DNA from: Deefgea piscis
GTDB lineage: Bacteria > Pseudomonadota > Gammaproteobacteria > Burkholderiales > Chitinibacteraceae
Length of the DNA stretch: 64,000 nucleotides
Reading direction: 5' to 3'
NCBI RefSeq assembly: GCF_013284055.1
Contig: NZ_CP054143.1
Location: 372,001 to 436,000 of the forward strand
Shown here piece by piece: positions 1,164 to 64,000 of the stretch (its first letter is position 1; every line of letters begins with the position of its first letter). The position numbers and the translations under genes were made by a program. The notes below the pieces were generated by a model that ran no database searches, was not told where the DNA came from, and saw nothing but the letters and a program-made list of their open reading frames with translations.

Positions 1164-3137
1164 ATGTCAGAAATGAATCGTTGGATGTTGGCGGCAATCC
1201 CCGCCATGATGATCAGTGCTTATGCCCATGCTACACCGGCATGGAGCGAAGGCAGTACTTACAATGCAGGTACCATCGTCAGTTACAAAGGACTTAATTA
1301 CAGCGCCCTCGTTACGCACACCGCTTACGTTGGCGCCGGCTGGACGCCGGATACCACCGCCACGCTATGGAAAGTAGCGGCCAATAGCAGCACCGCACCG
1401 ACGGCCCAACCTAGCCCTAGCCCGACCGCCTCACCGACGGCGACCCAAACACCTGCGCCAACACCAACGCCAAGCATTGCGCCCACGGCAACACCGACCA
1501 CCGCCCCCACGACACCAAGTAATTGCAGCACAACGTGGAATAGCGCCACCGCCTATCAAGGTGGACAGCGCGTGGTATATAACAACATCACTTTTGAAGC
1601 CAAATGGTGGGTACAAGGCACGATCCCATCGACCACCGACCAATGGGGTCCATGGAAAAACTTAGGCAGCTGCAACGGCGCGACGCCGACACCGACGGTA
1701 AAACCAACGGCGACACCAACCGCAACGCCGACTGCAACACCAACTGCAACACCGACTGCAACACCAACTGCAACACCAACTGCAACACCGACAGCAACAC
1801 CGACAGCAACGCCAAGTTCAGTACCAACGGCAACGCCGACCAGCAGCCCAGTGGCCGCCTACAAGCCGCAAATTAGCTATGTTGCCGCACCAGCAGGCTA
1901 TCCAAGCGCAGAACAATTTAGCGCCGCTGAGCGTGCTTTGTACGCCCAAGCCGGATCTGACAGCCAAACCATCGATCGAATTCGCGCAGCGCTACAAGTT
2001 CGCCCCGACAATATTGTGAATGCTGTTAGCCCAGGCGCAGCGAGCAATCCGGACAACGTTAAACGCGTTGAACGGGTATTGAGCTTGGCGAAATTTGATT
2101 ATTTCTTCCCCGTTCGCAATGTGAAATACACCTACGATAGCCTGCTCAAAGGCGTGGCTAAATTCCCAGCCTATTGCGCAACGTATACCGATGGCCGTGA
2201 TTCTGATTTGATTTGTAAAAAACTGCTGGCCACCTCGTTTGCTCACTTTGCACAAGAAACTGGCGCCAACTGGCCTTCACTCACGCCTGCCGTTGCGCGC
2301 GGTTATCCTGAGCAAAATAATGCCGTGTTAGCCACACTCGAGCAAAACGTCGCGATCCCGACCTTCCGCCAAGGTTTATGGTTCTTGCGTGAGCAAGGCA
2401 TGGTCGAAGGCAACGGCACAGGCGGTTATCAAGACTGCTTTAACGGTGCCGGTAGCTCGATTTTCTCGATTTTCTACCCTTGCAGCAAAAATGCCCAAGG
2501 CCAAAACCTGAGCTATTTTGGTCGTGGCTCCAAGCAACTCTCGTGGAATTACAACTACGGCCCATTCAGTAAATCACTGTATGGCGATGTGAATGTTTTA
2601 CTCGATAAACCCGAATTGGTTGCCGATACTTCGCTCAATTTTGCCTCAGCGATTTGGTTTGCGGTGTATCCACAGTCACCAAAACCACCGATGACTTGGG
2701 TGATTGACGGCACTTGGGTGCCCAATCAAGTGGACGCAGCCAACAATATGAAACCGGGCTTTGGTGCCACCACCTACATCATTAACGGTGGCATTGAATG
2801 CGGTAAAGGCAGCGAAGTCTCGCAATCGCTCAATCGGATTGCGGCGTATAAAGAGTTCACCAAAGAACTTGGCATCGACATTACCGGTGAGCAGCTCACG
2901 TGTGGCAATTCAAAAGGCTTTACCGATGGCTCGGCAGCAGCCACCAAAACTTATTTGGATAAAGGCTGGAATTACAACCCGAATAATCCGGGCGGCGTAG
3001 CATGGTCATGCCAATTAGCCACTTACCAAACGCCGTTTAGCCTGGCCAATCCGGGTGATTATCAAGCCTGCGTTGATTACTTCTTCCGTGGCCAAGTGAA
3101 ATTTAATGGCCAAATCGTCATCGACAACAGCAAATAA
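1164..3137 (+). CDS. Secreted modular GH19 chitinase with two CBM5/12 domains
   Basis: A 657-residue endochitinase predicted to hydrolyse beta-1,4-GlcNAc chains outside the cell. Order of parts: signal peptide (about residues 1-23, ending AHA); a first chitin-binding CBM5/12-like domain (about 25-72, PAWSEGSTYNAGTIVSYKG); a Pro/Thr linker; a second CBM5/12 (about 119-170) with the AKWWVQG aromatic patch; a longer PTAT linker; then a GH19 catalytic domain (about 240-600). The catalytic domain shows AHFAQETGANW, carrying the likely acid Glu, and YFGRGSKQLSWNYNYG, the family signature. The ribosome site GGAGACGGT fixes the first ATG. A strong terminator follows, so it is probably monocistronic. 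The function call is secure; extracellular chitin use is inferred from domains. Confidence 0.93.
   Translation: MSEMNRWMLAAIPAMMISAYAHATPAWSEGSTYNAGTIVSYKGLNYSALVTHTAYVGAGWTPDTTATLWKVAANSSTAPTAQPSPSPTASPTATQTPAPTPTPSIAPTATPTTAPTTPSNCSTTWNSATAYQGGQRVVYNNITFEAKWWVQGTIPSTTDQWGPWKNLGSCNGATPTPTVKPTATPTATPTATPTATPTATPTATPTATPTATPTATPSSVPTATPTSSPVAAYKPQISYVAAPAGYPSAEQFSAAERALYAQAGSDSQTIDRIRAALQVRPDNIVNAVSPGAASNPDNVKRVERVLSLAKFDYFFPVRNVKYTYDSLLKGVAKFPAYCATYTDGRDSDLICKKLLATSFAHFAQETGANWPSLTPAVARGYPEQNNAVLATLEQNVAIPTFRQGLWFLREQGMVEGNGTGGYQDCFNGAGSSIFSIFYPCSKNAQGQNLSYFGRGSKQLSWNYNYGPFSKSLYGDVNVLLDKPELVADTSLNFASAIWFAVYPQSPKPPMTWVIDGTWVPNQVDAANNMKPGFGATTYIINGGIECGKGSEVSQSLNRIAAYKEFTKELGIDITGEQLTCGNSKGFTDGSAAATKTYLDKGWNYNPNNPGGVAWSCQLATYQTPFSLANPGDYQACVDYFFRGQVKFNGQIVIDNSK
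1713..1808 (+). repeat. 12-bp tandem repeat coding the PTAT linker
   Basis: Eight near-identical 12-base units (ACACCAACTGCA / ACACCGACTGCA variants) lie head to tail inside the chitinase gene and encode the Pro-Thr-Ala-Thr linker. The unit is a multiple of three, so slippage would change linker length without a frameshift. Reverse-strand frames through it are by-products of the repeat. Confidence 0.9.
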
Positions 3138-3342: not shown

Positions 3343-3391
3343 GGGTATACCTGTTTAGACTTTATCAAAAATAAGCCACAGAGAAATACCC
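3343..3391. repeat. 49-bp GGGTAT...ATACCC element, copy 1
   Basis: Exactly 49 bp, starting GGGTAT and ending ATACCC, with TTTAG near position 13 and partial internal pairing. Its last base directly precedes the stop codon of the minus-strand NUDIX gene, so in that transcript it is the first 49 bases of the 3' untranslated region. It belongs to a family of ten in this window. Confidence 0.75.
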
Positions 3392-3940
3392 CTATACCAA
3401 ACCTTTTTGCTGCGCCCAAAATACGCCAGCAATGGTTTTAGCATCGGTAATGCTGCCATCGAGTACGCCAGCGATCAGCTCAGGCATACTCATCGTAATG
3501 CTTTCTAAAAATTCACCATCATCGAGCTGACGCTCTCCGGCGGTTAAGTCTCGCGCCAAATACAATTTAATTTCTTCGTCGGTATACGAAATAATTGGGT
3601 GAATCACCCCCAGATATTCCCAAGACGCGGCGCTATAACCGGTTTCTTCGAATAATTCGCGCTGCGCGCAAGCCAAAGGATCTTCGCCAGCGTCGAGTTT
3701 ACCGGCCGGAAACTCGATAAACACCCGATCTAATGGATAACGAAATTGCCGCTCAAGCAATAATCGGCCATCGGCTAGCTGTGGAATCACCATCACCGCG
3801 CCTGGGTGCTTAATATATTCACGCGTTGCCGTGCTGCCATCGGGCAAACGCACGGTATCGCAAAAAGCGTTGAGCAATTTGCCTTTAAATAAGGGCTGGC
3901 TAGAGAGCGTTTCTTCGATTAAATGGCGATCTACTGACAT
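3392..3940 (-). CDS. NUDIX hydrolase, ADP-ribose pyrophosphatase type
   Basis: A 182-residue protein starting MSVDRHLIEETLSS. The Nudix box is complete (G-x5-E-x7-REL-x-EETGY) at about residues 92-114, preceded by FIEFPAGKLD, as in the ADP-ribose/ADP-glucose pyrophosphatase (NudF-like) subgroup that cleaves ADP-sugars to AMP and sugar phosphate. A longer frame starting about 100 bases upstream is possible, but a terminator hairpin with a T run ends only 14 bases before this ATG, which argues for the shorter start. It follows glgP, so cleavage of ADP-glucose, and thus a brake on glycogen synthesis, is an attractive but unproven role; ADP-ribose is the usual family substrate. Confidence 0.85.
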   Translation of the reverse strand: MSVDRHLIEETLSSQPLFKGKLLNAFCDTVRLPDGSTATREYIKHPGAVMVIPQLADGRLLLERQFRYPLDRVFIEFPAGKLDAGEDPLACAQRELFEETGYSAASWEYLGVIHPIISYTDEEIKLYLARDLTAGERQLDDGEFLESITMSMPELIAGVLDGSITDAKTIAGVFWAQQKGLV

Positions 3941-9419: not shown

Positions 9420-13109
<3,690 letters not shown>

Positions 13110-13116
<7 letters not shown>

Positions 13117-15302
13117 GCGGTTTCACTCCAGCGTAAATATAGCGTTGCTAGTGGGGGTATGGTCATACAAACCGAATTTGCCCTGCCGTGCGCTGAAATA
13201 CCCTCACTCAGTAGCAAGACATTTCCCAGATTACTACCACCATAAAAATAGGAATCGCTATTGAGTATTTCTTGATAAAAGCCCGCTTTGGGCACACCGA
13301 GCCGATAGCCATGTCTAGGCACTGGCGTGAAATTACTCACCACCACCACAAATTCATCGGCCACATCGCCGTGGCGAATAAAGCTAAAAATCGACTGCTC
13401 GCCCTCATCATGCGCAATCCACTCAAAGCCGCGCGGTTCAAAATCGAGCTGATACAAAGCAGCTTGGCTGCGATAAGTGCGGTTTAAATCCTTCACCAAT
13501 TGCTGCACGCCGCGATGATGGCCGTGTTCGGCGTCGAGCAAATGCCAATCCAAACTGGTTTCGTGTTGCCACTCGGCCACTTGCGCCAGCTCGCAACCCA
13601 TAAACAGTAATTTTTTGCCCGGATGGCCCCACATAAAAGCGTAATACGCGCGCAGGTTGGCAAATTTTTGCCTGTCATCCCCGGGCATTTTGCTCAATAG
13701 CGAGCCCTTGCCATGCACCACTTCGTCGTGTGACAAAGGCAAGACAAAGTTTTCCGAAAAGGCGTATACCAAACCAAAAGTCATTTTGTGATGATGATAT
13801 TGGCGGTTAATTGGGTCTTCTTGCATGTACGACAGCGTGTCGTTCATCCAACCCATATTCCATTTGTAATGAAAACCCAAACCGCCCATCGCTGGCGGGC
13901 GCGATACCGCAGGAAATGACGTTGATTCCTCGGCCAAAGTCACGGCAGACGGGCGCTCAACGCCAACGACTTCATTCATCCGGCGGATAAAATCAATCGC
14001 TTCAAGGTTTTCTCGGCCACCAAATTGATTGGGAATCCATTCACCGTCTTTACGCGAATAATCGCGGTACAGCATCGAGGCCACCGCATCCACCCGCAGC
14101 CCATCAATGCCATAGCGTTCCAGCCAATACAGCGCATTACCAATCAAAAAATTGCGTACTTCATTGCGGCCAAAATTGTAAATCAGCGTATTCCAATCCG
14201 GATGAAAGCCCTCCCGCGGATCGCTGTGCTCGTACAACGGCGTGCCATCAAATTGTGCCAAACCATGTGCATCCGCCGGAAAATGCCCCGGCACCCAATC
14301 TAAAATCACCCCAATGCCAGCGGCTTGGAATGTGGCCACCATAAAGCGAAAATCATCAGGGGTACCATATCGGGAGGTTGGCGCATAAAGACCTAGCGGC
14401 TGATACCCCCATGAACCATCAAATGGATGCTCGCTAATCGGCAATAGTTCAATATGGGTAAAGCCCATATCGAGCACATAGGCGAGTAATTCAGTCGCCA
14501 GTTCACGATAAGTGAGCCAGCGATTGTTGTCTTCTGGGCGGCGCCGCCAAGAGCCCAAATGCACTTCATAAATTGAGATCGGGGCATTGAGTGCATTGGC
14601 GGCTTTACGGCTTGCCGTACCTTCAATCCATGCCGGCAATTGCGCCACTCGCGATGCTGTGGCTGGGCGTAATTCCGCAGAAAAAGCATACGGGTCGGCC
14701 TTACACTCAAGCTGATCTTGCTGATCGGTAATTTGATATTTATAAGCTTGCCCTGCGGTGACTTGCGGCAAGAAAATCTCCCAAACGCCGCATTCTTTGC
14801 GTAAGCGCATGGCATGGCGCCGACCATCCCAGCAATTAAAATCGCCTACCACCGCCACCCGCCGCGCATTGGGCGCCCACACCGCAAAACTCACGCCAGC
14901 AACGCCATCTTGCGAACAAAAATGCGTTCCCAATCGCTCGTAAGGACGCAATTGATTGCCTTCGGCCAATAACCACAGATCCATTTCGCCTAAAATCGGC
15001 GCAAAGCGATATGGGTCTTCAATCTCGAGCGGGCCTTCTTGCCATTGCACGCGCAAATGATAAGCAAAGCAATGCACTCGGCGTGGCACCACCACGGCAA
15101 AAAAACCGCGCTCATCGATACAGTCAAAATCGGCCAGCTTTTTACCGGTTTTACTTTCGATTAAACTACAATGCCTCGCCGTTGGTAGCCAAGCTCTCAC
15201 TTGCACCGTACCGTCAACCAGATGCATACCCAAGAAAGAAAATGGATCAGCATCCTGACCAGAACAAACGGCAGCAACGCGGGCTAAATCAACTGAAATC
15301 AT
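13110..15302 (-). CDS. glgB: 1,4-alpha-glucan branching enzyme
   Basis: A 730-residue GH13 enzyme that introduces alpha-1,6 branches. It has an N-terminal GlgB-type domain, then a CBM48 ([24 protein letters not shown]), then a catalytic barrel with [17 protein letters not shown] (nucleophile), LAEEST (acid) and [10 protein letters not shown]. The start MISVDLARV is preferred because GAGG lies five bases upstream; a longer frame would need a TTG start. It is the first gene of the glg operon. The divergent alpha-glucosidase gene shares its upstream region. Confidence 0.95.
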
Positions 15303-15357
15303 CGAAACCTCGATCGGCGGTAGCTTGCGCAATGATTGTTTATAGTCAAACCTAAGA

Positions 15358-17170: not shown

Positions 17171-17213
17171 AGCACCGAAGCAAAGATGTAAATGTATATG
17201 CTGGTAGCTGCCA

Positions 17214-17435
17214 TTAAATAACAGCTAGCGGCATATACCATGATTGGCGGGTGAAATAGAAGCTTCGTTGGTATATTGGGTAGCCCACGACTTGATTGGC
17301 ATTTTTAATACCCGTTGCCCGCGATTCACGTGTTCCGTTGTTGTTATTGTCTAATTTATAAATTGTAACGGCGTGTGCTGTGCTCGAAAAAAAGATGGCG
17401 ATTATCACTGCAGTTTTTAAAGCAGAGGTACGCAT
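17214..17435 (-). CDS. Small exported protein with one HAF-like repeat
   Basis: 73 residues: a clear signal peptide (MRTSALKTAVIIAIFFSSTAHA, cleavage after AHA), then a short mature part containing ATGIKNANQVVGY. That resembles one unit of the HAF extracellular repeat (TGINxxGQVVGY) found in autotransporter-like secreted proteins. The protein stops soon after, so it may be the remnant of a longer repeat protein or a genuine small secreted peptide. I see no continuation in the other frames just downstream. Function unknown. Confidence 0.5.
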   Translation of the reverse strand: MRTSALKTAVIIAIFFSSTAHAVTIYKLDNNNNGTRESRATGIKNANQVVGYPIYQRSFYFTRQSWYMPLAVI

Positions 17436-23306: not shown

Positions 23307-23355
23307 GGGTATATTCCTGAAGCCATTACATATAAATAGCTTCAGGCATATACCT
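23307..23355. repeat. 49-bp GGGTAT...ATACCT element, copy 2
   Basis: The best-paired copy: GGGTATAT pairs with ATATACCT, and CCTGAAGC with GCTTCAGG, giving about 19 bp of stem with few mismatches. It lies in the hscB-hscA gap, inside the isc operon. Confidence 0.85.
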
Positions 23356-25684: not shown

Positions 25685-25733
25685 GGGTATCACCATCTAG
25701 CCATCTAAAATAAAAGCCTAGCCAGCCATACCC
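25685..25733. repeat. 49-bp GGGTAT...ATACCC element, copy 3
   Basis: Begins seven bases after the fdx stop and ends 12 bases before iscX. GGGTAT/ATACCC and CTAG/CTAG arms pair; the flanks are mismatched. It therefore sits between two genes of one operon. Confidence 0.75.
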
Positions 25734-27035: not shown

Positions 27036-27356
27036 TTAATGGTGATGCATTGGCATCGAAGCGTGTGCTGGCATCGACGCATGAGCTGGCATCGAGCCAT
27101 GCGCCATTCCGCGGTGACCTTTGTTACTTGAACAATTGGCGCGCATCGCTTCACGTGCGGTACGGCGTTCAGCCACGGTCACGATACCATCTTTATTGGC
27201 ATCCATTTGCTCAAAGCGGGCATCCGACATTTTTTGATGCTCAGCCTTAGTGATATCGCCTTTTGGCATTTGTGGGCAAGTTGGCGTGGCAGCGAAAGCC
27301 ATCGAAGTGGCAAAAACAGTCGCAGCTAATAACAAAGCTTTCATTGAGGTATGCAT
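27036..27356 (-). CDS. Exported EF-hand protein with Met/His-rich tail
   Basis: 106 residues: signal peptide (MHTSMKALLLAATVFATSMAFA), a single EF-hand loop DANKDGIVTVAE with Ca ligands at the expected positions, then a tail of repeated SMPAHA units ending SMPMHHH. The tail looks suited to binding copper, nickel or zinc, although no binding is shown. GGAG lies seven bases before the chosen ATG; a longer frame starts upstream without support. Periplasmic location is likely. It is divergent from the DUF2322 gene. Confidence 0.75.
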   Translation of the reverse strand: MHTSMKALLLAATVFATSMAFAATPTCPQMPKGDITKAEHQKMSDARFEQMDANKDGIVTVAERRTAREAMRANCSSNKGHRGMAHGSMPAHASMPAHASMPMHHH

Positions 27357-27451
27357 TTTATTTCTCCAAACCAGCAAACTGCACTATGCAGCATGTTCTG
27401 TGTGATATAACGTCGCAATCTTCAATTCGGTTGACGACTAGGATAAAAAAA

Positions 27452-27763
27452 ATGACTTTTGCTGAACAACTGGCCTTAATGCCAAGCATTGATCACTTAT
27501 CGGCCATTGAGTTACTCGATGGTGAAACCGTGATCGCCCGCATTGAAAATCGCCCCGGCCAAGCCGGTAGCGTGCGGTTGTACCATGCCTTGTATCAAGA
27601 ATTTGGCGCCATCAGCGATATTGCCGCGCAAAAAGGCCTACGCCTCTATGCCGAACATACCGCCGATGCACAGGCTTTTCCCGGGAAACACCCCAACATC
27701 GATCGTCTATTCCCCATTGCCGAAGGTGGCCAGCCTTTAGCTGTTCGCCTTATTGCCGCTTAA
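27452..27763 (+). CDS. DUF2322 family protein
   Basis: 103 residues starting MTFAEQLALMPSIDHLSAIELLDG, with GKHPNIDRLFPI near the end. Size and sequence fit DUF2322, a small uncharacterised family of Beta- and Gammaproteobacteria. A longer in-frame reading begins 63 codons upstream but runs over the EF-hand promoter and lacks family support. It lies just ahead of a MipA-like gene with almost no gap. Function unknown. Confidence 0.65.
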   Translation: MTFAEQLALMPSIDHLSAIELLDGETVIARIENRPGQAGSVRLYHALYQEFGAISDIAAQKGLRLYAEHTADAQAFPGKHPNIDRLFPIAEGGQPLAVRLIAA

Positions 27764-27791: not shown

Positions 27792-28604
27792 ATGCCCTGT
27801 GCTACATTAAACCGATGTATTGCCCGCTTAGCATTATCAGTAATGGCTTTGAGCGCAATACCTGCTCAAGCTGAAATTGACTTTGGTTCTTTGGATTTTT
27901 TAGCCAGTGACAATCCACAGAGCCCGATTCCCAGCGGACTGATTGTCGGCGGCGTAGTGCTCGGTGGACAAGCACGCTATCAAGCACAAGATGCAGCAGG
28001 GTATGCGATACCAGGGCTGATTTATTTTGGTGAACAGCTCATGTATCTGGGTGATCGAGCCCGCTATTATTTTTATAAAGAAAATAAGCTTGGGCTGTAC
28101 GCCTATGGTCGGGTTCGTTTTGGCAATCTAGACCCAAAAGACAATGCTGCATTCGCTGGCATGCTCAAACGTAAAGGCCAGCTTGAAGCCGGTGTAGGCC
28201 TCAATTACGCCCTGCCCTTTGCGCTACTGAGTATGCGCGTATCGAGCGATATCACTGGCAATAGTAAGGGGCAAGAAGCGCTATTTTGGACAGATTTCCC
28301 AATTGTTCGTGACAATCTACTCATCATGCCCGGTATGGGTGTCATGGTGCGCAGTAGCAAGATGGCCAATTATTATTTTGGTGGCGTTTCGGTGCAAGAA
28401 GCGAGTAGTAGCCGCCCAAGCTGGGATACTGGCAGTACCGTCTCTCCGATGCTGGCCATCATTAGCAGCTACCGATTTAATAAAAGCTGGATCGGCATGG
28501 CCGCAGTCAATTACGAGCTGTACGATAAAAACATCCAAAACAGCCCGATTGTGCAACATCGCGGTGAGTTTTATGCCGGAGTGGGGCTGGGTTATATCTG
28601 GTAA
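27792..28604 (+). CDS. MipA/OmpV family outer membrane protein
   Basis: 270 residues with a signal peptide (RLALSVMALSAIPAQA) followed by alternating amphipathic strands (GLIVGGVVLGGQARYQ, NKLGLYAYGRVRFG, GEFYAGVGLGYIW) ending in an aromatic residue, Trp, as in outer membrane beta-barrels. The order of strands fits MipA/OmpV, a family linked in E. coli to the murein synthesis complex MltA-PBP1B. The start is uncertain: this ATG lies 28 bases after the DUF2322 stop and has a poor ribosome site. It may be co-transcribed with DUF2322. Confidence 0.75.
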   Translation: MPCATLNRCIARLALSVMALSAIPAQAEIDFGSLDFLASDNPQSPIPSGLIVGGVVLGGQARYQAQDAAGYAIPGLIYFGEQLMYLGDRARYYFYKENKLGLYAYGRVRFGNLDPKDNAAFAGMLKRKGQLEAGVGLNYALPFALLSMRVSSDITGNSKGQEALFWTDFPIVRDNLLIMPGMGVMVRSSKMANYYFGGVSVQEASSSRPSWDTGSTVSPMLAIISSYRFNKSWIGMAAVNYELYDKNIQNSPIVQHRGEFYAGVGLGYIW

Positions 28605-31509: not shown

Positions 31510-31558
31510 GGGTATATCAATCTAGGTCATTATTTATAAAACTTAGGTCGATATACCC
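31510..31558. repeat. 49-bp GGGTAT...ATACCC element, copy 4
   Basis: Begins seven bases after the prmB stop. Nine outer pairs (GGGTATATC/GATATACCC) and an inner CTAGG/CTTAG-type arm make a strong hairpin. It is closely similar to copy 5 about 95 bases downstream. Confidence 0.85.
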
Positions 31559-31579
31559 ATTAATTAAAGGCAATGTACG

Positions 31580-31631
31580 GATTTGGTGTTGATGCTTTGC
31601 CGCAGGCACTTAAAACCATCAATACCCAATC
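31580..31631. repeat. Short form of the GATTTGGTGTTGATG inverted-repeat element
   Basis: Ends GATTTGGTGTTGATG and CATCAATACCCAATC pair with few mismatches around TTTGCCGCAGGCACTTAAAA, itself holding a TGCC-GCA-GGCA hairpin. It lies exactly between 49-bp copies 4 and 5, in the gap between two convergent genes. Confidence 0.65.
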
Positions 31632-31652
31632 TGATCAACAAGTAATCAAACT

Positions 31653-31701
31653 GGGTAGATCGATCTAGGAAATTTTTTATAAAACCTAGATCGACACACC
31701 C
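31653..31701. repeat. 49-bp GGGTAG...ACACCC element, copy 5
   Basis: GATCTAGG and CCTAGATC form perfect inner arms; outer GGGT/ACCC pairs with a few mismatches between. It ends 11 bases from the stop of the minus-strand diguanylate cyclase gene. Confidence 0.82.
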
Positions 31702-47356: not shown

Positions 47357-47405
47357 GGGTATAGACCGCTTACTCACTACCTTAAAGCCACAAAAGACAA
47401 TACCC
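47357..47405. repeat. 49-bp GGGTAT...ATACCC element, copy 6
   Basis: Begins 17 bases after the GNAT stop. The ends are canonical and the length exact, but internal pairing is weak. Its final ATACCC is also part of the left arm of the following terminator. Confidence 0.6.
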
Positions 47406-49862: not shown

Positions 49863-49911
49863 AGGTATATTCAGCTAGGCTATTTTTTATCTACCCTAAA
49901 ACAAAATACCC
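49863..49911. repeat. 49-bp AGGTAT...ATACCC element, copy 7
   Basis: Canonical length, CTAGG at the usual position with CCTA opposite. It sits just upstream of the Pho box, and its ATACCC end overlaps the left arm of the adjacent terminator, exactly as in copy 6. Confidence 0.7.
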
Positions 49912-56174: not shown

Positions 56175-56223
56175 GGGTATTTAACTGCAGCGCAATCCCA
56201 AATTGAACTACAGTTAAATACTC
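56175..56223. repeat. 49-bp GGGTAT...ATACTC element, copy 8
   Basis: GGGTATTTAACTG pairs with CAGTTAAATACTC over 13 bp (one G-U), with an inner arm distinct from every other copy. It lies about 85 bases before the next gene. Confidence 0.8.
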
Positions 56224-59089: not shown

Positions 59090-59351
59090 TTCAGATTACG
59101 TGTTGATCGTTTTTTAAGTGCCTGCGGCACCTTGTTTTACAGTCGCAGTCCGCGACGGGGACTCACTTTTCTTGCTTCGCCAAGAAAAGTAAGCAAAAGA
59201 AGGCGACCCGAGCGCGCCCAGCTCCGCTGTGCCCTCGATTGTCGTGAGCCAAACGATAAAACTGTTTGTCTCCCTCCTCACTCGGTGCGCTTAAACGGGA
59301 TTTTAAGCCCCAACTCGACGAGCGCGGCACAGCATCAACACCAAATCTGAA
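59090..59351. repeat. Long intergenic inverted-repeat element, copy A
   Basis: 262 bp, bounded by TTCAGATT..GTGTTGAT and ATCAACAC..AATCTGAA. Near one end is AAGTGCCTGCGGCAC (inverted form of GTGCCGCAGGCACTT), and GCGGCACAGC lies at the other. Inside is a hairpin ACTTTTCTT/AAGAAAAGT and long stretches shared, in inverse orientation, with 63051-63290. A frame across it is not a gene. Confidence 0.75.
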
Positions 59352-59368: not shown

Positions 59369-59417
59369 AGGTATTAGCCTCTGGCTATTTACTGCCAAGG
59401 CTTAGCGGGAAATACCG
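59369..59417. repeat. 49-bp AGGTAT...ATACCG element, copy 9
   Basis: Exact length; GGTATT/AATACC outer arms and a partly wobble-paired inner arm. It ends 22 bases from the stop of the TIGR03790-like gene on the minus strand. Confidence 0.65.
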
Positions 59418-62983: not shown

Positions 62984-63313
62984 ATTCATTGATACGATGG
63001 TAAAACCCGCCATATCGCCAGCCATTTAAACAGCAAAATGCAGGCGTTGTTTTGGTGTTGATGCTGTGCCGCGCTCGTCGGTCTGGGGCTTAAAAACCCG
63101 TTCAAGCGCACCGAGTGAGGAGGGAGACAAACAGTTTTATCGTTTGGCTCACGATCGATCGAGGGCACAGCGGAGCTGGGCGCGCTCGGGTCGCCTTTCT
63201 TTCCCCCTCTTTCTTTGGCGAGTCAAAGAAAGAGGGTCCCCGTCGCGGACTGCGACTGTAAAAAACCGTGCCGCAGGCACTTAAAACCAACCCTACCTAA
63301 CCCAAAAAACCAG
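62984..63313. other. Intergenic region between selD and hslO
   Basis: No gene. Mostly the second long repeat element; the frames across it belong to the repeat. Confidence 0.6.
63051..63290. repeat. Long intergenic inverted-repeat element, copy B
   Basis: Inverse copy of the element at 59090. It starts TTTGGTGTTGATGCTGTGCCGC and ends GTGCCGCAGGCACTTAAAACC. The inner hairpin is CCTCTTTCTTTG/CAAAGAAAGAGG here and ACTTTTCTT/AAGAAAAGT in the other copy: different bases, same pairing. The right inverted end is lost. Confidence 0.75.
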
Positions 63314-63362
63314 TGGTATTCACCGCTAGACCATAATCAACCAAGTTCTGCGAGCAATACCC
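63314..63362. repeat. 49-bp TGGTAT...ATACCC element, copy 10
   Basis: Exact length with CTAG at the usual position. Its last base directly precedes the hslO stop codon (minus strand), the same arrangement as copy 1 at the NUDIX gene. Confidence 0.68.
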
Positions 63363-64000
63363 TTATTGCACGGAGCCGGTAGCTGGGCTATCGGCATAGA
63401 GTGCACCGATATCCACGGCGTCAAACTCGTATTCTTTACCGCAGAAATCACACACGATATGCACATTACCGCGCTCGGCTAAGACTTCATCCACTTCATC
63501 GCGTTCCATCAATTTAATCATGCCGGCAACGCGGTGACGCGAGCAAGAGCAGGCAAAACGAGGCGTAGTGGGTTCAAATACGCGCACGCTGTCTTCATGA
63601 AATAAACGATACAGCACTTCACGCGCCGGTAGTTCCAGCAGCTCTTCTGGCTTAACGGTTTCTGCCAGCGTCACCAAATGTTCATACGATTGGGTTTCGT
63701 CCGCTTCCGCCGGCATTTTTTGCAGCATCATGCCTGCGGCCATTTTGTTGTCGCTTTTGGCATCGCTGCACGCCAACCACAACCGCGTTTCTAGCTGCTC
63801 AGACGCGCTCATATAGTGCTCGATAATTTGCGCCACAGACTGGCCACGCTCCATACCCACCACGCCTTGATACGCCTCGCCCACGGTTGGATCGAGCGTA
63901 ATCATAAAGCGACCCCGTCCGAGTAATTCAGCCAAGGAAGTGCCTGGACCAAAAGTTTGGATTTTGTCAGCGTCCCAGCGTGCAGTAGCACGCATGGTGC
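63363..64000 (-). CDS. hslO: Redox chaperone Hsp33, C-terminal part at window edge
   Basis: The last 212 codons; the frame is open to the right edge, so the N-terminal third is missing. TMRATARWDADKIQTFG is an internal segment. The redox switch is intact, with Cys pairs in FACSCSRHRV and IVCDFCGKEYEFDA (C-x-C and C-x2-C) that bind zinc when reduced. Hsp33 is a holdase activated by oxidation and unfolding. Confidence 0.93.
   Translation of the reverse strand, partial: TMRATARWDADKIQTFGPGTSLAELLGRGRFMITLDPTVGEAYQGVVGMERGQSVAQIIEHYMSASEQLETRLWLACSDAKSDNKMAAGMMLQKMPAEADETQSYEHLVTLAETVKPEELLELPAREVLYRLFHEDSVRVFEPTTPRFACSCSRHRVAGMIKLMERDEVDEVLAERGNVHIVCDFCGKEYEFDAVDIGALYADSPATGSVQ

Follow-up and report, generated by a model that had tools for sequence, protein, structure and literature searches.

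Why would a 49-bp palindrome lie directly against the end of a gene, and what keeps it there? The question arises in a 64,000-nucleotide stretch of the Deefgea piscis genome (the window), in which bases 3343-3391, GGGTATACCTGTTTAGACTTTATCAAAAATAAGCCACAGAGAAATACCC, form a palindrome with the ends GGGTAT and ATACCC (pattern GGGTAT-N37-ATACCC). The element is followed at once by CTA at 3392-3394, the TAG stop of a NUDIX gene on the minus strand, with zero bases between the two. A sequence-only reading of this DNA had reported this contact and a second one at hslO, and both were found as described: the hslO-side copy (63314-63362) directly touches the TTA (i.e., TAA) stop at 63363-63365, and the hslO product is Hsp33 by Pfam (PF01430). 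The same reading counted six more copies within about 25 bases of a stop. Such near-stop copies do exist, but they number five (25685, 31510, 31653, 47357, and 59369, at +7, +7, +11, +17, and +22 bp, respectively), the stop distances of window copies being taken from mechanical ORF ends. In total, the window holds 22 copies of the site, and an Rfam search of the window returned a single tRNA and nothing else.

Table 1. Coordinates, within the window, of 49-bp sites (with matrix scores) and of the other features referred to in the text
Feature	Position	Strand	Score or remark
49-bp site, ends GGGTAT/ATACCC	3343..3391	.	score 34; adjoins NUDIX stop
TAG stop of NUDIX hydrolase gene	3392..3394	-	PF00293, E=1.2e-18
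Site within phosphoglucomutase ORF (9420-11060, minus)	10550..10598	.	score 23; position kept in four Deefgea relatives and Chitinibacter
Site within GlgX-type ORF (11071-13116, minus)	12735..12783	.	score 19; conserved, exact 49-bp span
Site within GlgB-type ORF (13110-15332, minus)	13155..13203	.	score 22; conserved in five of five relatives
Weak site within GlgB-type ORF	14084..14132	.	score 13; cross-relative comparison
Weak site within GlgB-type ORF	14360..14408	.	score 16; cross-relative comparison
Intergenic site, 87 bp past a stop	17192..17240	.	score 28; site in matching gap of all five relatives
Intergenic site, strong dyad	23307..23355	.	score 40; site also at the aligned position of G001, G003, G004, and Chitinibacter G011
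Intergenic site, 7 bp past a stop	25685..25733	.	score 37
Site near end of ORF 27263-27763, may overlap weak ORF	27815..27863	.	score 35
Intergenic site, 7 bp past a stop	31510..31558	.	score 40; top-scoring window copy
Short MITE copy with a 49-bp site on either side, both at 17 bp	31575..31640	+	repeat comparison
Intergenic site, 11 bp from convergent gene's stop	31653..31701	.	score 26
Intergenic site, 17 bp past a stop	47357..47405	.	score 26
Intergenic site, 52 bp from a stop	49863..49911	.	score 34
Intergenic site	56175..56223	.	score 28
Long MITE copy, one end 17 bp from site 59369	59092..59351	-	repeat comparison
Intergenic site, 22 bp from a stop	59369..59417	.	score 34
MITE copy	63037..63300		listed window copy
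49-bp site, TGGTAT...ATACCC	63314..63362	.	score 32; adjoins hslO (Hsp33) stop

The element belongs to a large family of fixed architecture. A pattern search of the 3.43-Mb genome for the exact form gave 158 matches, and the reversed control gave 0; among exact end pairs in 864 kb, a spacer of 37 bp occurred 45 times and one of 38 bp 5 times, with about one pair for each of the other spacers. A symmetric matrix trained on the exact end pairs detected, at scores above 12, 210 copies in the 864 kb and 0 in the reversed sequence, which extrapolates to about 830 copies per Deefgea genome. The half-site reads approximately GGGTAT TTCCC TGTAG GCCTTTT, with GTA boxes recurring at about 10 bp and the outer boxes of the site lying 42 bp, or four helical turns, apart. 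GTAT at positions 3 to 6 and its mirror are nearly invariant (0.91 to 0.99 paired across the dyad), and the weaker positions are G2, T12, A15, G16, and the AT-rich centre. The information summed over the site amounts to about 26 bits, a figure that the score threshold biases upward, against about 12 bits needed for 830 sites. Tandem arrays with a 54-bp period, hinted at by the half-site spacing, were rejected, as full elements are never adjacent.

We then determined how far the family extends. Exact copies number 100 to 188 per genome in Deefgea, 175 to 291 in Chitinibacter, and 144 to 154 in Chitinilyticum, with a site density of 0.24 to 0.36 per kb in these three genera at GC contents of 48 to 61%. 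The family's eight remaining genera essentially lack the element (0 to 2 exact copies per genome), 398 Pseudomonadota had 0 to 4 exact copies, and 340 kb of outgroup sequence contained zero sites. An open-access literature search returned nothing on such repeats in Deefgea or Chitinibacter.

The few exact sites in an otherwise site-free genus (g8, Iodobacter-like by inference; L223, L225, and L226) adjoin HsdS-like type I restriction genes, which suggests transfer from the Deefgea clade. We considered these matches as an ancestral form of the site and rejected this, since they lie in restriction loci of the hsdS type and close to a gene for glutaredoxin; they are probably passengers of transfer. 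A separate comparison gave clearly homologous matched 49-mers in Chitinilyticum (G016, L250-L252, joined coordinate 42627) and in the D. piscis genome (G000:C1:170412), and this pair is likely a coding copy common to Deefgea and Chitinilyticum.

The gene context of the 210 copies was determined in the same 864 kb, about 25% of the genome, with a simple purpose-made ORF caller. Ninety-nine copies lie wholly within ORFs and are weaker than the 97 intergenic ones. The number of copies per kb is about 1.75 in convergent gaps, 0.8 in tandem gaps, and 0.14 in divergent gaps. Relative to uniform placement in identical intergenic gaps, copies are concentrated at stop codons: of 92 intergenic copies, 26 are at most 3 bp from a stop versus 5.4 expected (p<0.0005), and 7 abut it exactly versus 0.8 expected, with TAG over-represented among the abutted stops. 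The 3'-end bias suspected in the sequence-only reading is thereby borne out, and the distances to stops, which that reading had proposed to measure, are not those of copies scattered at random over intergenic space. Since the clustering also occurs in convergent gaps alone (11 stop-proximal copies versus 2.6 expected), promoters cannot explain it. In Chitinibacter, 17 copies lie between -3 and +10 bp of a stop, with 6.4 expected.

Along the Deefgea genome, the copies are spaced more evenly than random. Only 7% of the neighbour distances in Chitinibacter are below 1 kb, versus 26% for random placement; in one small sample of three Deefgea, close pairs were not under-represented. Coding copies keep away from intergenic ones (1% versus 9% at less than 500 bp; 0 versus 13% in Chitinibacter) and thus fill gaps. 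Plasmid contigs (55.6 kb) contain 0 sites versus about 13 expected, the ribosomal-protein operon and an inovirus-like region (L053, G000:C1:240001-260000, an integrated element with a Zot-like gene and its neighbours) contain none, and islands contain few. No gradient of sites from ori to ter was seen in the sampled part of the genome.

To what extent the copies are conserved was determined in syntenic regions of four Deefgea species and one Chitinibacter species. The copies are kept in place: orthologous positions are fixed down to about 75% identity and across genera, and coding copies are conserved without alignment gaps. In five coding copies, the 8-bp core is identical at 40 of 40 positions in G003 and again in G004, with the flanks 77 to 79% identical, and third codon positions within the core are identical in 14 of 14 cases, compared with 0.53 to 0.59 in the flanks. 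At site 12735, the Chitinibacter alignment is gapped locally and the 49-bp span is still exact. In seven genomes, five of Deefgea and two of Chitinibacter, a copy with a rewritten interior lies 0 to +10 bp past the NUDIX stop; in two Deefgea genomes the region downstream of NUDIX has been replaced, and several outgroups have ordinary terminators after this stop. Selection acts on both sequence and spacing.

The 49-bp sites favour gene ends, yet they are neither an mRNA signal nor an inserted element. An mRNA-end function, as proposed in the sequence-only reading, could take the form of a REP-like RNA hairpin at mRNA 3' ends that affects stability, or translation close to the stop, and E. coli REPs located at most 15 nt from a stop have been reported to stall ribosomes (PMC12306157). 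The sites share with REPs and BIMEs a palindromic structure, a high copy number, and enrichment just past stops, and Watson-Crick pairs exceed the expectation from independent columns in Deefgea intergenic copies (z ~5). This excess is limited to those copies, however, and is seen neither in coding nor in Chitinibacter copies; moreover, mismatches in transcript orientation show no preference for G-U over A-C (111 versus 114 in tandem, 26 versus 45 in convergent, and 214 versus 196 in coding copies). REPs are extragenic, variable in length, and maintained as stem-loops in RNA or single-stranded DNA, whereas about half of the 49-bp sites (99 of 210) lie in ORFs, their length is fixed, their primary-sequence core is invariant, and no hairpin constraint is seen. 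Intrinsic terminators, with their GC-rich hairpin and T-run, are as frequent with a copy as without one (0.31 versus 0.32 in tandem and 0.45 versus 0.46 in convergent gaps), so a replacement of terminators by the element was rejected. The absence of a G-U preference and the unchanged terminator frequency place the constraint on double-stranded DNA. An mRNA-end function is thus disfavoured, and the REP-like hairpin, already largely refuted, strikes us as very improbable.

The dispersed occurrence, inverted-repeat ends, and hundreds of copies could equally bring to mind a mobile element or a MITE-like insertion that may target stop codons, as the sequence-only reading suggested. The copies nevertheless have no flanking target duplications and no precise empty sites of the kind left by MITEs and other insertions, their orthologous positions are fixed, and a length of 49 bp is not divisible by three, so that insertion in an ORF would shift the frame. 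Insertion targeting of stops by the element itself was therefore rejected, and a mobile origin is barely credible. A transcription roadblock or global regulatory site, at which a bound protein would stop or modulate RNA polymerase just past the stop, agrees with the maximum between -3 and +10 bp of stops, with the convergent enrichment, and with the position past the NUDIX stop being kept across two genera; it does not agree with intrinsic terminators being equally common with and without a copy or with half of the copies lying in ORFs, and we regard it as distinctly unlikely.

A separate MITE-like repeat, unrelated to the 49-bp site, has terminal inverted repeats of approximately GGCAATGTTCAGATTACGTGTTGATG, a length of 74 or about 275 bp, and about 35 copies in the genome (loci outside the window include L266-L282). 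Most copies have one end 17 bp from a 49-bp site. Of 34 MITE ends in the sample, 12 lie at this distance, 3 at 16 bp, and 1 at 15 bp, where chance would give 1.7% each. Among 17 further stretches, one of which was already in the sample, a MITE end lies at 17 bp in 13, at 16 bp in 1, and at 18 bp in 1. The distance is 17 bp (range, 15 to 18) in about 30 independent cases, in either orientation. The MITE makes 8-bp duplications (a mean of 5.2 of 8 positions matching versus 2.6 after shuffling, five being perfect), and with the 17-bp distance this means that the duplicated target starts about 2 bp from the 49-bp site. Such fixed-distance insertion is the strongest indication that the site is occupied in the cell, as a nucleoid-organising site would be by an abundant protein; alternatively, the MITE or its transposase could itself recognise the motif rather than a bound host protein. 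At attTn7-type targets, the point of transposon insertion lies a short, constant distance away from the site that is recognised. The MITE insertions are alike in this respect, but the 49-bp sites number in the hundreds, most of them without an insertion, and they are present in Chitinilyticum, in the samples of which no recognisable MITE end was found.

The 49-bp sites are probably recognised by a putative DNA-binding protein, and at about even probability we take them to be anchor or boundary sites of such a protein, specific to the clade. A sequence-specific protein of Deefgea, Chitinibacter, and Chitinilyticum would recognise the double-stranded site as two inverted half-sites, with strong GGTAT boxes four turns apart, weaker TGTAG boxes one turn inward, and an AT-rich centre, and could lie along one face of the helix as a dimer or tetramer. 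The chromosome would in this way be marked by about 800 sites, one every 3 to 4 kb, most strongly just past genes and more weakly in ORFs where no gene end is available. Most likely, the sites would serve as anchors or boundaries distributed along the chromosome that help to organise it, e.g., confining supercoils or transcription at gene ends. The rigid spacer, the 210 copies versus 0 in reversed sequence, the clade limits, the core conservation, the even spacing, the enrichment at stops and in convergent gaps, the depletion in divergent gaps, and the MITE at 17 bp all speak for a protein-binding site. Against it count the information content, whose excess over need is atypical of ordinary binding sites and has a precedent in uptake sequences, the lack of an ori-ter gradient in the sampled part, and the slight pairing excess in Deefgea intergenic copies. 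The matS, parS, and Fis sites of nucleoid proteins are likewise double-stranded sites of specific sequence that are distributed along the chromosome; the 49-bp sites differ in being denser than matS and parS, in being longer, in occurring both in ORFs and at gene ends, in being confined to three genera, and in that their binding protein is putative. Wadjet/Mks (DUF3375) was considered as a partner of the sites and rejected, there being no correlation.

The strongest rival is a USS/DUS-like signal for the uptake of self-DNA, new in its architecture: transformation would preferentially import site-bearing DNA, with biased uptake and recombination spreading and maintaining the sites where the core genome permits them; it ranks so because DUS and USS have a matching distribution and excess information, although we judge it rather unlikely. 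Uptake sequences occupy permissive core-genome positions, are commonly intragenic, are not found in recent acquisitions, and stay conserved while their flanks diverge (PMC2397512); they arise by point mutation, are fairly evenly spaced, and consist of a small inner core that does not vary, bordered by degenerate AT-rich sequence (PMC7811141). Their distribution resembles that of the 49-bp sites (PMC2397512, PMC7811141, PMC3630211). Like the DUS of Neisseriaceae and the USS of Pasteurellaceae, the sites occur in hundreds of clade-specific copies, both coding and intergenic, are over-represented at permissive core positions and absent from acquired DNA, are spaced more evenly than random (the small three-Deefgea sample excepted), and combine a small invariant core with excess information. 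ComEC and ComP_DUS-type pilins are encoded in all three site-bearing genera, and a search of the genome for short DUS-like oligomers found none that stands out, which also favours an uptake role of the 49-bp site. The same proteins, however, are equally present in genera without sites. The rigid palindrome of two half-sites, an obligate inverted pair at fixed spacing, is unlike the 10- to 12-bp DUS or the 9-bp USS core, and DUS/USS are short directional motifs, mostly single and non-palindromic. An uptake signal does not predict the precise stop-codon preference, convergent gaps included, and fixed-distance transposon insertion suggests binding inside the cell; we know of no description of such insertion for DUS.

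For the putative DNA-binding protein, we propose, with somewhat less than even confidence, an undescribed chromosome-marking system in the three genera. A dimer or tetramer would occupy about 800 rigid 49-bp palindromes, evenly spaced with one every 3 to 4 kb, placed preferentially at gene ends and embedded in ORFs wherever required, and these would provide boundary or insulator points that transposons use as safe landing sites. To our knowledge, dense, evenly spaced, clade-specific marks on bacterial chromosomes have hardly any known examples other than DNA-uptake sequences. A rigid palindrome that has an uptake-like distribution, is selected even in ORFs, and serves as a landing mark for a transposon points to either a new chromosome-organising protein or a new self-DNA signal; the genera are cultivable, and one family holds genera with and without the sites.

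Three minor observations concern single loci. At L266 (1409-2599), two MITE ends 1.6 kb apart enclose a gene for an IS481-type transposase; we considered this locus as an autonomous partner of the MITE and rejected it, the transposase more likely having inserted inside a MITE copy. At 31510-31701 of the window, the short MITE copy has a 49-bp site on either side; G001, a close relative, has a single site there, as if recombination between sites had deleted the segment. Finally, a 12-bp tandem repeat at 1411-1840 of the window encodes a Thr/Pro-rich linker in a large plus-strand ORF (1164-3137).
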